Below, piece by piece: positions 2,320 to 7,802 of a stretch of 23,462 nucleotides of DNA. Made by a program: the position numbers and the translations under genes. The stretch lies in IMG/VR virus record IMGVR_UViG_3300022752_001877, positions 1-23,462 of that record, one strand, 5' to 3'. The notes under the pieces were generated by a model. The model saw nothing but the letters and a program-made list of their open reading frames with translations, was not told the DNA's origin and made no database searches. This DNA comes from a virus. Numbering within the stretch: the first letter of the stretch is position 1; every line of letters starts with the position of its first letter.

Positions 2320-2640
2320 ATGGAAATCTTAGAAATGCCGAGCGATGTACAGGCTTGGGTACGCAATTTTATAGAAAACAGATTTTGGAAGTTTGCTCGC
2401 ACATACGCTAAAACCGCTCCGCACTCATACACCGTAAGAGATTGGGTATTAGACCCCGAAGACGATTTCTCTACAATGGTTAGACTTATTAGAGAATACG
2501 GTAGAGCAGAAAGATTTTATTCTAAAACTTATTATTACCTTTATCTTGACGGACAAAAATACTGGACAATGGGCGAACCCGTAGAAACAACAATACTTAT
2601 AAATAGGTGCGACTGGGGAAATTATTATGGTGCAGCCTAA
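2320..2640 (+). CDS. Conserved phage hypothetical protein
   Basis: A 106-residue protein rich in aromatic residues. Residues 10-40 (VQAWVRNFIENRFWKFARTYAKTAPHSYTVRDW) include the PHSYTVRDW signature that I associate with small bacterial and phage proteins of unknown function. The middle carries RLIREYGRAERFYSKTYYYLYLDG and the end INRCDWGNYYG. No catalytic motif is evident. A purine-rich ribosome binding site (AAGAGGG) precedes ATG 2320, and the stop lies inside the next gene (14-base overlap). Confidence 0.75.
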   Translation: MEILEMPSDVQAWVRNFIENRFWKFARTYAKTAPHSYTVRDWVLDPEDDFSTMVRLIREYGRAERFYSKTYYYLYLDGQKYWTMGEPVETTILINRCDWGNYYGAA

Positions 2641-3013
2641 AATTGCGCCATGCTCATATTTAGAAATTGAACATTTAGTCGCGCAAGCCAAAAAAGAAAG
2701 AATAGGCATTACACCTAATACCAAATTCTATTGCGCTAAATATAACGAAAAGGTTATTGGATTTTGCGGGATAGTATTTAAGCAAGGATACGCGGTTGTA
2801 AAAAATATCTATGTAACGCCCGAATACAGAAAACAAGGATTAGGCGAAGAAATTATTAAATACCAATTTAGGGTAGTTAAACAGGCTGGCTACCCTTATG
2901 CGCTTGCTTATTGCACCCCAATGAGCATAAACATATTTATAAAATTAGGCGCAAAGGTAATAAAAGAATATAAAAAATCTACGGTTGTGCGTATAGACAT
3001 GAGCAAACAATGA
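2627..3013 (+). CDS. GNAT-family N-acetyltransferase
   Basis: A 128-residue GCN5-related acetyltransferase, expected to move an acetyl group from acetyl-CoA to an amine. The central strand KVIGFCGIVF, then VKNIYVTPEYRKQGLGEEII at about residues 58-77, is the acetyl-CoA pyrophosphate-binding motif A (R68-x-x-G71-x-G73). The late segment IFIKLGAKVIKEYKK matches the usual C-terminal strand and helix. The substrate is unknown. It overlaps both neighbours, including a 4-base ATGA junction with the glycosyltransferase-like gene, so it probably belongs to the same accessory cassette. Confidence 0.87.
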   Translation: MVQPKIAPCSYLEIEHLVAQAKKERIGITPNTKFYCAKYNEKVIGFCGIVFKQGYAVVKNIYVTPEYRKQGLGEEIIKYQFRVVKQAGYPYALAYCTPMSINIFIKLGAKVIKEYKKSTVVRIDMSKQ

Positions 3014-3609
3014 TTGCGGGAGTAATTACAACCCCGAACCGCCAAAAGTATCTAAATGACCTCATTAAACTTATAGCCCCAAAGGTAGATAAGTTTGTCA
3101 TATTTAACGACCAACATAGGCAAGGGCATACTTGGAACTATAAAAGGTGTGTTAGAGAAGCAACCGCCTTGGCTAAAACAGATGAACCTGTCCTAATTAT
3201 GACGGACGATGTAACTACCGTACCTGATTGGCGCGATAGGTTTGAGGCTTTACAATACAAAGTGCCGAATGATATTTATACCTTTTTTACACGCCAAAGG
3301 CACATGATTAAATACTCTGAGGCTGGATACGCAAAAGGCTGTTTTGCTCGTGGATTTTATGACCAAGCGGTCATATACATAAACCAACAAGATTTAATGG
3401 ACAAGGTAGAGGCGTGGTTTGATGAAAAGGGCAAAACAATTATGAACCCTAATAGAGCAAAGCATTTTGATGTTGTGGTGCAAGATTATTTGATAGATGT
3501 TGGGCATGAATGGGTTGTAACCGTGCCAACGCTATTTGACCATATAGGCGAAGAGTCTACAATGGGACACGATATAGGCGGTTCAATAGCGTACATAGGG
3601 GCGAAATGA
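3010..3609 (+). CDS. Glycosyltransferase-like protein (GT-A-type)
   Basis: A 199-residue protein. It begins with a strand-loop MIAGVITTPNRQKYL typical of nucleotide-sugar transferases. LIMTDDVTTVPDW at residues 62-74 places an acidic metal-binding DxD-like motif (TDD, 65-67) after a hydrophobic strand. Later FDVVVQDYLI and the C-terminal TLFDHIGEESTMG resemble acceptor-side motifs of phage and actinobacterial glycosyltransferase-like proteins. It likely transfers a sugar from a nucleotide donor to DNA, protein or a surface glycan; the acceptor cannot be read from sequence. Four-base overlaps on both sides tie it to the acetyltransferase and PP-loop genes. Confidence 0.75.
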   Translation: MIAGVITTPNRQKYLNDLIKLIAPKVDKFVIFNDQHRQGHTWNYKRCVREATALAKTDEPVLIMTDDVTTVPDWRDRFEALQYKVPNDIYTFFTRQRHMIKYSEAGYAKGCFARGFYDQAVIYINQQDLMDKVEAWFDEKGKTIMNPNRAKHFDVVVQDYLIDVGHEWVVTVPTLFDHIGEESTMGHDIGGSIAYIGAK

Positions 3610-4745
3610 AAATATACAAAAATGAAACGGTGTTTGAGGAATCGCTAAACCGCATACGCCTTATCTATGACGAGTTCCCCGAAGTAATTGTTTCTTTTTC
3701 GGGTGGCAAAGACAGTACGGTAATTTTAGAATTAGCAAAAATAGTAGCCCGCGAAAAGGGTAGATTGCCCGTTCCCGTGTTTTGGCTAGACCAAGAATGC
3801 GAGTTTGCTTCTACCGTTGAATATGTAAAAACGGTCATGTATGACCCCGAAGTAAAACCACTTTGGTATCAGATACCTTTTAGATTACAGAACGCTACTT
3901 CGGCTAATGAATTATGGCTAAATTGTTGGGGCGAAGGAGAAGAGTGGGTTAGAGATAAAGACCCAATATCTATTAAAGAAAATACTTTTGGTATTGACCG
4001 CTTTGTTGCTTTAATGGAGGGAATAGTTAGTCAGACTTACCCTAATACTGCGGTTGCAGCGCTTACTGGAGTTAGGGCAGAAGAAAGTCCCACAAGATTT
4101 ATGGCTGTTACGGAAGACGCAACCTATAAATGGATTACATGGGGTAACACAATAAACAAAGGATTAAAACATTTTAATTTTCACCCTATTTATGATTGGT
4201 CATACCTAGATATATGGAAAGCCATTTACGACAATAACTGGAATTACAACAAACATTATGACGCTATGTTTCGTTATGGCGTCCCAGTAAAGAAAATGCG
4301 GGTGTCTAACTATCACCACGAAACCGCAGTTCACAGTTTATTTATGCTCCAAGAGATTGAACCCGAAACCTATCAGGCTGCAACCCGTCGTATATCGGGC
4401 ATAGATACGGCTGGCAAAATGGGTAAAGCGGATTGGTTTGTGTATGAAGTGCCTTTTATGTTTAAGGATTGGGTTGAGTATCGGGATTATCTGTTAAAAC
4501 ACCTGATTCCTGACCCTAAACACCAAGAAAAGTTTGCTAAAAAGTTTGCTTCTATTGAGCGTAGATATTCTCGTTCGGTGGGTCCTGAACTTTATAAATC
4601 GCAGGTAAACTCAATTTTGTGTAATGATGTTGAACTTACTAAACTGGGTAACTGGGAAGCCCGCAATTATAATGACGCCCAATTAGCAAGGAAGGAAGCC
4701 CAAAGTGCCAAGTTTGCCAACCACATTAACAGTTCCGCTATTTGA
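3606..4745 (+). CDS. PAPS-reductase-family PP-loop enzyme, IbrA-like
   Basis: A 379-residue adenine-nucleotide alpha hydrolase. The PP-loop SFSGGKDSTVI (SGGKDS at 32-37) follows strand VIVSF and would bind ATP or a PAPS-like nucleotide. VPVFWLDQECEF and ALTGVRAEESPTRF (about 153-166) are the other usual family blocks. Length and the C-terminal half (MRVSNYHHETAVHSL, then RRISGIDTAGK) point to the IbrA/phage branch rather than assimilatory CysH. In this family, and in DndC, PP-loop enzymes activate sulfur or act on nucleic acids. The adjacent IbrB-like ParB gene reproduces the known IbrA-IbrB pair. The actual reaction is unknown. Confidence 0.87.
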   Translation: MKIYKNETVFEESLNRIRLIYDEFPEVIVSFSGGKDSTVILELAKIVAREKGRLPVPVFWLDQECEFASTVEYVKTVMYDPEVKPLWYQIPFRLQNATSANELWLNCWGEGEEWVRDKDPISIKENTFGIDRFVALMEGIVSQTYPNTAVAALTGVRAEESPTRFMAVTEDATYKWITWGNTINKGLKHFNFHPIYDWSYLDIWKAIYDNNWNYNKHYDAMFRYGVPVKKMRVSNYHHETAVHSLFMLQEIEPETYQAATRRISGIDTAGKMGKADWFVYEVPFMFKDWVEYRDYLLKHLIPDPKHQEKFAKKFASIERRYSRSVGPELYKSQVNSILCNDVELTKLGNWEARNYNDAQLARKEAQSAKFANHINSSAI

Positions 4746-5385
4746 GGCGTTTAACGCTTCTGAGAACAAACAAGAATTCTTAAACGAGGTAAAAAAATAT
4801 CTGTTTGCCCTATCCCCTCGCAAAAATCAACCAATAGATAATGTCCAATGGGTGCCGATAGAAAAAGTCCAAGCCAATGATTACAACCCAAACAGCGTAG
4901 CCGATAACGAAATGCGTTTGTTATATGTATCTATTAGCCATGACGGTTATACCCAACCAGTAGTTACCTTTTATGATGACGAACTAGAAAAATACATTAT
5001 CGTAGACGGCTTTCACCGTTATACAACTATGCGTCGCAATAAAGACCTTTATGACTTAAATGACGGCAAACTGCCCGTTGTGGTTATTGACAAAAATATA
5101 AATGACCGTATGGCTTCTACTATTCGCCATAATCGCGCTCGCGGTAAGCATTCTGTTGCAGGAATGGGTCAAATAGTGTTTAATATGTTAAAGAACGGTG
5201 CGTCAGATGAAGAAATCTGTTCGGAAGTGGGCTTGGAAGCGGAAGAATTAGCACGATTAAAGTATGTAACGGGGTTTGCTAAGTTGTTTGACAATGTTAA
5301 GTATGGTCAGGCTTGGGAAACCCACAAACAAATAAAGATTAGAAAAGATTACATGGAGGCGCAAAATGGAACAGAAAAGTCTTAA
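4705..5385 (+). CDS. ParB-like nuclease-domain protein, IbrB-like
   Basis: A 226-residue protein. A ParB/sulfiredoxin-fold domain covers about residues 45-150: VPIEKVQANDYNPNSV, then ISHDGYTQPVV, then IIVDGFHRYTTMRR, the ParB active-loop equivalent of GExR, then IRHNRARGKH. A small helix-turn-helix-like region follows (GASDEEICSEVGLEAEEL). The pattern matches IbrB, partner of the PAPS-reductase-like IbrA encoded just upstream. The start is GTG 4705, supported by an AAGGAAGG ribosome binding site about 8-10 bases upstream, giving a 41-base overlap with the PP-loop gene. ParB domains bind CTP or ATP; the target is unknown. Confidence 0.85.
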   Translation: MPSLPTTLTVPLFEAFNASENKQEFLNEVKKYLFALSPRKNQPIDNVQWVPIEKVQANDYNPNSVADNEMRLLYVSISHDGYTQPVVTFYDDELEKYIIVDGFHRYTTMRRNKDLYDLNDGKLPVVVIDKNINDRMASTIRHNRARGKHSVAGMGQIVFNMLKNGASDEEICSEVGLEAEELARLKYVTGFAKLFDNVKYGQAWETHKQIKIRKDYMEAQNGTEKS

Positions 5386-5941
5386 TGTTCAAACCGTAAG
5401 CATAGATAGCCTTGTTCCATACTGGAGAAATCCGCGTAAAAACGAGATAGCCGTAGAGAAGGTCAAAGCCTCTATTGCTGAGTTTGGTTATCAGACCCCA
5501 ATTATTGTAGATAAAGAAATGGTTATAATTACAGGGCATACTCGTTATCGTGCCTTAAAAGAACTAGGCTATTCGGACATACAAGTAATTATTGCTGACC
5601 TTCCCCAAAAGAAGGCTAAAGAGTTCCGTATCGTGGATAACAGAACCTCAGAATATGCTACTTGGACAAGCGACCTAGCCTTGGAGTTAAAAGAGTTTAC
5701 AAGCCCTGAGTTCCTAGACATTTTCTTTCCCGATATTAAATTAGACCCTGATTTTCTAAAGGTTACAGACGGCAACAGTCAAACAGACATAAATGAGGTT
5801 GCAGCAAACCTAGAGAAGAAGTTTGAGGCATTTTCGCAAGATAGAGAGAACGAGCCAAAGATTACTATTCCATGCCCTCATTGTGCCGAAAGCATTACAA
5901 TGCTTAAAAGAGATTTGTTAAATGAAAAGAACTGGAACTAG
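5366..5941 (+). CDS. Second ParB-like protein with C-terminal CxxC
   Basis: A 191-residue protein. Its ParB-like domain starts SIDSLVPYWRNPRKN (12-26), continues with IAEFGYQTPIIVD, and has the nucleotide-loop motif ITGHTRYRALKELG at 55-68. VDNRTSEYATW follows (90-100), as in phage ParB proteins encoded beside terminase. The C-terminus adds CPHC (170-173), one zinc-knuckle half that may pair between subunits. GGAGG lies 8 bases before ATG 5366, inside the previous gene. It sits two bases before the small terminase, so a role in packaging, DNA marking or host transcription control is plausible. Confidence 0.85.
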   Translation: MEQKSLNVQTVSIDSLVPYWRNPRKNEIAVEKVKASIAEFGYQTPIIVDKEMVIITGHTRYRALKELGYSDIQVIIADLPQKKAKEFRIVDNRTSEYATWTSDLALELKEFTSPEFLDIFFPDIKLDPDFLKVTDGNSQTDINEVAANLEKKFEAFSQDRENEPKITIPCPHCAESITMLKRDLLNEKNWN

Positions 5942-5943
5942 TC

Positions 5944-6369
5944 ATGGCGGGCAGAAAACCTAAACTAACTAAAGAACTGATAGAAAACCTGCGAAAAGCG
6001 TTAGAAGCGGGTAACTATATTGAAACTGCTTGCGATTATGTAGGTATCAGTCGCACAACTTTATATCGTTGGCTTGCAGAAGGTGAGCAGGATAAGGCTA
6101 AACCTCTATTTCGGGAATTAAGTAACACAGTAACCCGTTCACGAGCCGTTGCGGAAATGCGTAATGTTTATAAAATCCAACAGGCTGCGGAAGAATCTTG
6201 GCAGGCTGCGGGCTGGTGGCTAGAGCGTTCTCATTCAAAGAAATGGGGCAGACAACAAAAGGTAGAATTATCGGGCGTTGAAGGCGCACCTATTAACATT
6301 TCGCTTGACGCTAAAGAGCGCCTACTAGAAATAATTAGACAAAAAAACGCTCAAAAATCTGAGGAATAA
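5944..6369 (+). CDS. terS: Terminase small subunit
   Basis: A 141-residue DNA-recognition component of the packaging motor. Residues 5-45 carry a helix-turn-helix (LEAGNYIETACDYVGISRTTLYRWLAEGEQ) typical of small terminases, followed by a helical oligomerisation region (RSRAVAEMRNVYKIQQAAEESWQAAGWWLERSHSKKWGR). This last 'WWLER--P/S-KWG' block is a strong family marker. Its stop overlaps the large terminase start (TAATG). It would bind the packaging initiation site; no obvious pac or cos sequence was recognised. Confidence 0.9.
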   Translation: MAGRKPKLTKELIENLRKALEAGNYIETACDYVGISRTTLYRWLAEGEQDKAKPLFRELSNTVTRSRAVAEMRNVYKIQQAAEESWQAAGWWLERSHSKKWGRQQKVELSGVEGAPINISLDAKERLLEIIRQKNAQKSEE

Positions 6370-7802
6370 TGTCTAAAAGCCTTGCCGAAGAGGTTGCGTC
6401 ATGGACACTAGAAGAACAAGAGGCGTGGGCTAAATCACTTACGCAAGATGAAGCCCTTGCTTACACGCAAGACCCATGGTGGTACATAGGCAGACCCGAA
6501 CAACAAGAGCCCGAAGGTAAATGGGTTGTATGGCTAATTCTCGCTGGTCGTGGTTGGGGCAAAACTAGAACAGGTTCAGAGTGGCTTATTGACCGAGTAT
6601 TAGAAACACCTACCGCACCTGACGGAGCGCCTACCGAGTGGGCGATTATTGCCGAAACCTTTGGAGATTGCCGTGTGATGTGTGTTGAGGGTCCAAGCGG
6701 AATACTCAGAGTTTTAATGCGCAAAGGGCTAGTTAATGGCGAGGACTTTGAATATAACCGCTCATCTTGGCAAATTAGACTTAAAGACGGACAGAGAATA
6801 CACATGTTTGGCGCTGATAACCCTGACGCTGGTCGTGGATTTAACCTAAGCGGAGTATGGGCAGATGAAATAGCCAAATGGCGATACCCCTTTGAAACAT
6901 GGCACGAAGGTATTGCTCCCGCTTTGCGTATTGGCAAAATGCCAAGAGCGGTAGTTACTACAACCCCAAAACCTATTCGGATTTTAAGAGAGTGGGTAAG
7001 CCGTAATGACGGCTCGGTTCATGTAACACGAGGGTCTACCTTTGATAACTCCTCAAACCTATCTCAGGCTGCACTCATAGAATTACAAGCCCGATATACG
7101 GGTACTAGAACGGGCAGACAAGAACTATATGGCGAATTATTAGACGATATTGAGGGTGCACTATGGAATAGAAAAATGATAGACGACATGCGCCTAGCGA
7201 CAGCACCTCAACTAATGCGTATAGTTGTAGCCATAGACCCCGCAGTAACGAGCGGAGAAGATTCAGACGAAACAGGCGTTGTCGTTGCGGGGCTATCTAA
7301 TGACGGCAAGTTTTATGTATTGGCAGATTATTCAACCCGAACAACCCCTGACGCATGGGCGCGGGTAGCAATAGACGCTTATAAAGAGTTTAAGGCAGAC
7401 CGTATTGTTGCCGAAGTAAATAATGGTGGAGATATGGTTAGCATTTTATTACGGACAGTAGACCCAACAATCCCAGTTAAGAAAGTTACAGCGAGCAGAG
7501 GCAAAAGAGTAAGAGCCGAACCTATTTCTGCCTTATATGAACAGGGCAGAGTTCACCATGTTGGCGAGTTTGTTAAATTAGAAGAACAAATGATTAGTTG
7601 GACACCCGATATGTTGCGCTCGCCTGACAGAATTGACGCACTTGTATGGGCATTAACAGAACTAAACGAGGGAAGCGCAAGCATGGTATCGCTATCTGCT
7701 ATGGCTATCTTTTGCTCAAATTGTAAAATGCCTTCACCGAAATCGGCAGTTATATGCGCTAAGTGCGGAACGCCATTACAACATGAACCAAAACCGCTAT
7801 GA
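6369..7802 (+). CDS. terL: Terminase large subunit with C-terminal zinc ribbon
   Basis: A 477-residue packaging ATPase and nuclease. Walker A is LAGRGWGKTRTG at 59-70. Walker B is SGVWADE at 161-167, with catalytic Glu167, followed by coupling motif VVTTTP at 195-200. The RNase H-like nuclease has acidic residues Asp290 (AIDPAVTS), Glu349 (VAEVNNGG) and Asp423 (DRIDALVWA). The enzyme normally ends about where ALTELNEGSASM falls. Here a 30-residue extension carries Cys449-x2-Cys452 and Cys463-x2-Cys466, a compact zinc ribbon, which is unusual. It pumps DNA through the portal and cuts the concatemer. Confidence 0.95.
   Translation: MSKSLAEEVASWTLEEQEAWAKSLTQDEALAYTQDPWWYIGRPEQQEPEGKWVVWLILAGRGWGKTRTGSEWLIDRVLETPTAPDGAPTEWAIIAETFGDCRVMCVEGPSGILRVLMRKGLVNGEDFEYNRSSWQIRLKDGQRIHMFGADNPDAGRGFNLSGVWADEIAKWRYPFETWHEGIAPALRIGKMPRAVVTTTPKPIRILREWVSRNDGSVHVTRGSTFDNSSNLSQAALIELQARYTGTRTGRQELYGELLDDIEGALWNRKMIDDMRLATAPQLMRIVVAIDPAVTSGEDSDETGVVVAGLSNDGKFYVLADYSTRTTPDAWARVAIDAYKEFKADRIVAEVNNGGDMVSILLRTVDPTIPVKKVTASRGKRVRAEPISALYEQGRVHHVGEFVKLEEQMISWTPDMLRSPDRIDALVWALTELNEGSASMVSLSAMAIFCSNCKMPSPKSAVICAKCGTPLQHEPKPL

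Follow-up and report, generated by a model that had tools for sequence, protein, structure and literature searches.

An IbrA–IbrB gene cassette beside phage terminase genes, a candidate system for nucleic-acid modification

What might a tailed phage do with an acyltransferase, a glycosyltransferase, a PP-loop ATP pyrophosphatase and two ParB-like proteins, all encoded immediately upstream of its terminase genes? The question is raised by the IMG/VR virus record IMGVR_UViG_3300022752_001877, analyzed here over its complete 23,462 bases (the window), which is a tailed-phage fragment with genes for SSB, HNH, terminase, portal, head and tail proteins. These genes belong to a cassette in which a near-fixed core, consisting of IbrA (the PP-loop enzyme), IbrB and ParB2 (the two ParB-like proteins) and a small uncharacterized domain, g08, is combined with exchangeable enzymes that add sugar, acetyl or methyl groups. 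On balance, the cassette is probably a phage-encoded, post-replicative nucleic-acid modification system, acting most likely on DNA and less likely on RNA.

A near-fixed core and its interchangeable enzymes

IbrA-related loci came from a single-sequence scan (12) and an alignment scan (80), and profiles of the window proteins were run over 87 loci. Removing those with IbrA at least 85% identical, and those too short to judge, left a non-redundant set of 38 IMG/VR loci. IbrB adjoins IbrA in all 38, ParB2 is present in 37 and g08 in 34. The glycosyltransferase (GT) occurs in 21, and four loci have a second GT family; a methyltransferase of the g08-fused kind is found in 12, a DPPW methylase-like family in 11, the GNAT-family acyltransferase in nine, a CEPPF methylase-like family in six, a cupin-like family in four and an S-adenosylmethionine (AdoMet) decarboxylase in one. 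At least one such group-transfer, or tailoring, enzyme is present in 38/38 loci, in 18 combinations, a figure that holds partly by construction since the profiles were trained on these neighborhoods. Less affected by this are the g08, IbrB and ParB2 counts and the absence of far matches: about 69 tailoring matches lie near IbrA (287 kb) against two elsewhere in the same loci (251 kb).

The initial annotation had proposed a functional block around IbrA–IbrB. A search for related phages carrying these genes independently, with no conserved neighborhood, found the reverse, both in the 38 loci and in the g08 search described below. The block had also been drawn as a unit of five genes; that unit was rejected, as GNAT and GT are variable and occur together in only five of the 38. 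The g08 domain was absent from that list and is better conserved in the cassette than either of them. The same counts bear on the simplest alternative, that unrelated accessory genes (morons) have clustered by chance beside the terminase. Late operons often have accessory genes inserted near them, and GT and GNAT genes are individually common, but this explanation is contradicted by the conservation of 38 diverse loci, by the reverse search (76/80) and by the near absence of far profile matches, and we regard it as very improbable.

In the window, the cassette and its context are arranged as follows.

2320-2640, + strand: g08, uncharacterized domain of 106 amino acids (PHxYT...KYWTMG...INR); no Pfam or PHROG match
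2627-3013, + strand: GNAT-family acyltransferase, variable tailoring gene (PF00583, 4.8e-11)
3010-3609, + strand: GT of predicted GT-A fold, commonest variable tailoring gene (phrog_854, 1.4e-6, and model)
3606-4745, + strand: IbrA-like PP-loop ATP pyrophosphatase, core (PF01507, 3e-18; DUF3440, 2e-9; phrog_2302, 5e-79)
4705-5385, + strand: IbrB-like protein of the ParB/Srx superfamily, core (phrog_2159, 9.1e-75)
5366-5941, + strand: ParB2, second ParB-like protein with C-terminal CPxC (here CPHC), core (PF02195, 4.6e-9; phrog_620, 5.4e-38)
5944-6369, + strand: terminase small subunit TerS, context (phrog_4102, 1.2e-36)
6369-7802, + strand: terminase large subunit TerL, context (PF17289, 9.8e-21; PF03237, 2.5e-17)

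The five reading frames at 2627-5941 on the + strand are all open and intact with overlapping ends, as first described, and the Pfam and PHROG searches agree with the families then named (GNAT, GT, IbrA, IbrB and, with CPHC, a further ParB-like protein), the GT being a distant glucosyltransferase-like match. The setting between replication-type genes and terminase was likewise borne out, with SSB and HNH upstream and TerS and TerL downstream. The g08 and GNAT genes share 14 nt; further overlaps are 4 nt (GNAT/GT), 4 nt (GT/IbrA), 41 nt (IbrA/IbrB) and 20 nt (IbrB/ParB2). Such overlaps may, as first suggested, reflect a stoichiometric function. IbrB starts with GTG at 4705, with AAGGAAGG upstream, and a gap of 2 nt separates the end of ParB2 from TerS. 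TerL carries a C-terminal double zinc ribbon (DZR, 0.003; CxxC...CxxC).

Several observations describe how the modules move. The Spearman correlation of pairwise identity with that of IbrA was 0.47 for IbrB, 0.34 for ParB2 and 0.04 for GT; GT similarity thus does not track IbrA, which argues that GT genes are exchanged. ParB2 can lie downstream of ibrAB, as in the window, or upstream (loci L010 and L013). Fusions join g08 to a class I S-adenosylmethionine methyltransferase (L005, L006 and L010) and to an AdoMet-decarboxylase domain (L011), and a separate AdoMet-decarboxylase homologue precedes ibrA in L079 and L082. Methylase-like enzymes that fill the variable slot resemble DNA amino-methylases (DPPW...D..G.G; N6_N4_Mtase, 6.7e-6) and match phrog_67/498, annotated as DNA methyltransferase. 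In several IMG/VR loci, the position ahead of ibrA is taken by the cupin-like family. Three phage-like regions of metagenome-assembled contigs (L185, L186, L199) have the order methyltransferase, IbrA, g08, DPPW methylase-like, IbrB, TerL, with the modules shuffled around the core.

Cultured phages carry the genes as well. In Microbacterium phage Hendrix, read across the arbitrary genome start, the set comprises a GT (profile 3e-28), a second GT, g08 with a methyltransferase, an N-acyltransferase, IbrA, IbrB, two CPxC ParB-like proteins, one further gene and TerL; phage Leaf has a similar cassette over the part of it covered. Akoma, Salgado, 031MP002 and L338C have ParB–IbrA–IbrB; some of these sets lie close to terminase or a methyltransferase, and the g08 profile matched in none of the four. 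Gaia, XCL1123 and D4276 have IbrA–IbrB alone or with a cupin. In Mycobacterium phage Gaia and Pseudoalteromonas phage XCL1123 (L089, L091), the annotation places IbrB next to, or in one protein with, an ectoine-synthase-like cupin.

What do the tailoring enzymes decorate? The AlphaFold2 model of the window GT (pLDDT, the predicted local distance difference test, 91.8) gave 96 PDB matches at E<=0.001 with Foldseek, and among the matches listed all were GT-A-fold glycosyltransferases and nucleotidyltransferases; the best was mimivirus R655 (6.8e-7). D67 is invariant in the alignment, in keeping with a GT-A fold that has an acidic metal-binding motif. The window GT had no tblastn match in named phages, and a single-sequence scan of IMG/VR gave only L002 and one weak match. 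In the GNAT subfamily (window 2627-3013; 19 sequences aligned), Cys 96 and Ser 100 are invariant, which is unusual and could indicate a special acyl transfer.

The modeled GT fold also matches a PBCV-1 capsid GT (1e-4) and protein glycosyltransferases, and structural genes adjoin the cassette. The GT, GNAT and methyltransferases could accordingly decorate capsid or tail proteins, or a host-surface glycan, with IbrA supplying an activated metabolite; one report infers mycobacteriophage capsid glycosylation from GT genes (PMC11256854). We think a virion or host-surface glycoconjugate improbable, however. It leaves unexplained the obligate IbrB/ParB2/g08 core, the DNA-methylase-like alternatives and the cellular g08 genes beside GmrSD and HIRAN, and some cassettes have no GT at all.

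The g08 domain in phages and in cells

The g08 domain was modeled by AlphaFold2 with a pLDDT of 92.7. A PDB search of the model gave no match at E<0.001, and a fold search in BFVD returned one unnamed viral protein. Sequence scans used alignment A4, the wider A2 being too diverse. A reverse search with only the g08 motif KYWTMGx[PL] gave 80 viral loci, and IbrA lay in the fetched flank of 76; these are not 80 independent events, since some were already in the first survey and some of the contigs are near-identical. Among the four loci without IbrA, two start about 100 bases before g08 yet hold ParB2 and one ends just past g08; L108, one of the four, has only g08.

Cells present a different picture. 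A scan of GTDB genome contigs gave 39 g08 loci, and IbrA was found in only four, all phage-like. Seven such cellular genomes were searched whole, with no IbrA match in six and a marginal one (57 residues) in the seventh. The idea of g08 as a partner of IbrA only was therefore rejected as a general statement, 35 of the 39 cellular loci being without IbrA. Pfam searches of 76 proteins from these loci (g08 neighbors and a few g08 fusions) found GmrSD_N 10 times, WYL seven, HIRAN six and GmrSD_C five, and also PD-(D/E)XK and UvrD. In nine Prevotellaceae-type loci, a few kb at most separate g08 from GmrSD_N-like genes, and HIRAN or WYL is found at others; on the Prevotellaceae contigs L196, L205, L203, L202, L200, L192, L207, L190 and L216, g08 stands without IbrA beside GmrSD-like DUF262, HIRAN and WYL. 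Those genomes, of 2-4.6 Mb, have 0-5 GmrSD_N matches each. GmrSD cuts DNA containing glucosylated hydroxymethylcytosine (PMC4619093), and WYL regulators accompany phage-defense systems (PMC9122601). In Prevotellaceae, g08 may be an uncharacterized component of type IV restriction loci, judging from its gene neighbors. This company ties g08 to DNA conflict, and DNA is accordingly what the phage cassette most likely acts on.

Some cellular g08 domains are part of longer proteins. An archaeal one is fused to an ADP-ribosylglycohydrolase (L178:934-2388; PF03747, 5e-81). Read by eye, L206:6001-7467 looks like a PD-(D/E)XK fusion, and L212:3135-4214 may carry a nuclease-like N-terminal part.

What the cassette may do

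The core proteins narrow the possible chemistry. IbrA has the domain order of its family (the PAPS_reduct PP-loop domain, PF01507, at 66.8 bits, cut-off 22.5; then DUF3440, PF11922, at 37.8, cut-off 25), and IbrB is encoded directly after it and matches phrog_2159, as IbrB family members do. SGGKDS and GVRxEES are near-invariant in IbrA, and DQExE is among the other kept residues. Across 87 sequences there is no conserved cysteine column (the best, position 107, has Cys in 55/87), which speaks against the kind of thiol chemistry seen in DndC, ThiI or CysH. IbrA also falls far below the models for DndC (TIGR03183: 24.5 bits, cut-off 290.4) and for CysH, the assimilatory phosphoadenosine phosphosulfate reductase (TIGR00434: 20.7 bits, cut-off 165.1). 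The DndC-like sulfur chemistry first suggested is thus disfavored. The closest PDB sequence is CysD (1zun, 2.3e-7, residues 10-71), followed by flavin adenine dinucleotide synthase over a short stretch; CysD is the adenylylating subunit of ATP sulfurylase.

IbrB carries DGFHR (D101-G102-F103-H104-R105) in 100% of 86 sequences, an instance of the DGxHR signature of the NTPase branch of ParB/Srx proteins (DndB, GmrS, Srx), to which DGQHR in DndB and DGQQR in GmrS correspond (PMC4619093). It falls below the Pfam ParB_N cut-off (24.2 against 26.3). In ParB2, GHxR and CPxC are kept at 95-100% in 80 sequences. ParB2 scores 41.4 bits against the 58.45 of the partition-ParB model TIGR00180, and no ParA was found among the window proteins scanned (not every small reading frame was scanned, and parS was not sought). 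PADLOC defense models gave no assignment; IbrA had weak partial matches to BrxP/DndC only, and ParB2 a weak, partial one to the ParB part of an MTase_II model.

From these families we infer a scheme. The IbrA PP-loop would adenylate an oxygen on a base (or on DNA), and a nucleophile other than sulfide would displace AMP, with IbrB powering or gating the reaction through its DGxHR NTPase, as proposed for DpdB and DndB. ParB2, with its GHxR and CPxC, and g08 would engage the DNA. The installed group, or a neighboring position, could then be decorated by interchangeable enzymes, GT and GNAT here, and elsewhere methyltransferases, the cupin-like enzyme or the AdoMet-decarboxylase homologue, which could supply an amine. 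An amine nucleophile is hinted at only by these rare homologues. The position beside the terminase suggests that the mark would be laid down before packaging, and the benefit would presumably be escape from restriction; substrate, chemistry and order of steps are all read from the genes.

That a ParB-like ATPase can take part in base modification has a precedent in DpdB, which acts in dPreQ0 insertion into DNA (PMC12839542). No paper linking IbrA or IbrB to DNA modification was found in the literature searched, and a paper on polyamines in the virosphere mentions neither ParB nor DNA modification. A 2013 survey of predicted phage DNA modifications in Nucleic Acids Research is said to have predicted lysidine-like and modified-SAM systems in phages.

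The same enzymes could instead modify tRNA or mRNA, or make a modified nucleotide or small-molecule signal. The known PP-loop base modifiers TilS and ThiI act on tRNA. Some cassettes have an AdoMet-decarboxylase homologue, and phage homologues of SpeD are able to turn ornithine or arginine into putrescine or agmatine by decarboxylation (PMC10407285). Set against this are the DNA-methylase-like alternatives, the adjoining terminase, the g08 genes beside DNA restriction genes and the absence of tRNA genes from the window, and we consider an RNA or signal product unlikely. We likewise give little credence to a regulatory device, in which IbrA and IbrB would co-activate gene expression, as reported for E. 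coli, and the other genes would be independent cargo. One source (PMC4490671) describes IbrA and IbrB as co-activators in the expression of prophage genes, and citR deletion in E. coli raises ybdNM alongside changes in cys and flagellar genes (PMC9068703); tight conservation with g08 and GT, methyltransferase or GNAT genes would be unexpected for cargo, however, and regulation could itself result from DNA modification. The tabulation of the ybdNM rise with changes in the cys regulon and flagellar genes in the citR mutant may also point to a link of the IbrAB homologues with sulfate assimilation (PMC9068703).

DNA modification remains the best explanation of a fixed ATP-using core, swappable enzymes, DNA-methylase-like alternatives, a domain shared with restriction loci and the terminase position taken together. 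The nucleic-acid link first proposed was strengthened by the DNA-methylase-like alternatives and by cellular g08 beside GmrSD, HIRAN and WYL. Several points weigh on the other side. Several isolated phages, such as Gaia, D4276 and XCL1123, have IbrA–IbrB but neither g08 nor these tailoring genes, and the same holds for E. coli ybdNM, whose recorded role is regulatory only. Protein glycosyltransferases (the PBCV-1 capsid GT, POMGNT1, GLT25D1) are among the fold neighbors of the modeled GT. The Prevotellaceae g08 loci are mutually related, so the GmrSD adjacency represents fewer independent events than loci. Activation of a base by the PP-loop is suggested by family membership, and modified DNA in cassette carriers by their gene content.

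A broader proposal, which we hold only tentatively, is that IbrAB is the ATP-activating core of an unrecognized class of post-replicative DNA base modification with modular, horizontally swapped decorations, and that g08, as a domain of a new kind that binds DNA or modified bases, directs modification in phages and guides modification-dependent (GmrSD) restriction in bacteria. IbrA and IbrB have for years borne a regulatory label without biochemistry; the cassette supplies an enzymatic context, predicts a chemistry (activation without sulfur, then interchangeable decoration), and has an uncharacterized domain in common with host restriction loci. If this is true, DNA-modifying enzymes would have a further source, diverse and widespread in the environment, and the phage–restriction arms race would gain a new arm.

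Comparison with known systems

The nearest relatives are IbrA–IbrB of E. coli and its prophages (YbdN–YbdM in K-12), the same two families in adjacent, overlapping genes (phrog_2302/2159); the reported neighbor of E. coli ybdNM, however, is citR, and g08, ParB2 and tailoring enzymes are missing there (PMC9068703). Dnd phosphorothioation likewise pairs a PP-loop ATPase (DndC) with a DGxHR ParB/Srx protein (DndB), but the cassette IbrA has no conserved cysteines and scores far below the DndC cut-off, and no DndA, DndD or DndE neighbors were seen. In Dpd 7-deazaguanine DNA modification, DpdB is similarly a ParB-like ATPase that has a base-modifying enzyme as its partner (PMC12839542); no transglycosylase (TGT/DpdA) was found among the window proteins scanned, and the PP-loop enzyme would replace base exchange. 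GmrSD type IV restriction shares the ParB/Srx fold with its DGxxR motif, and cellular g08 genes adjoin it, but GmrSD degrades modified DNA, and the phage core showed no HNH partner resembling GmrD.

Phage base hypermodification appears to differ in its core, which in the cassette is IbrAB: no hydroxymethylase- or thymidylate-synthase-like gene is annotated beside it or in about 60 of the 98 kb of Hendrix, the window being a fragment. In organization the two are alike, since glucosylated hydroxymethylcytosine in T4, Mom and the thymidine hypermodifications also combine a core modification with transferable GT or GNAT-like decoration, and they too are engaged in an arms race with type IV restriction.

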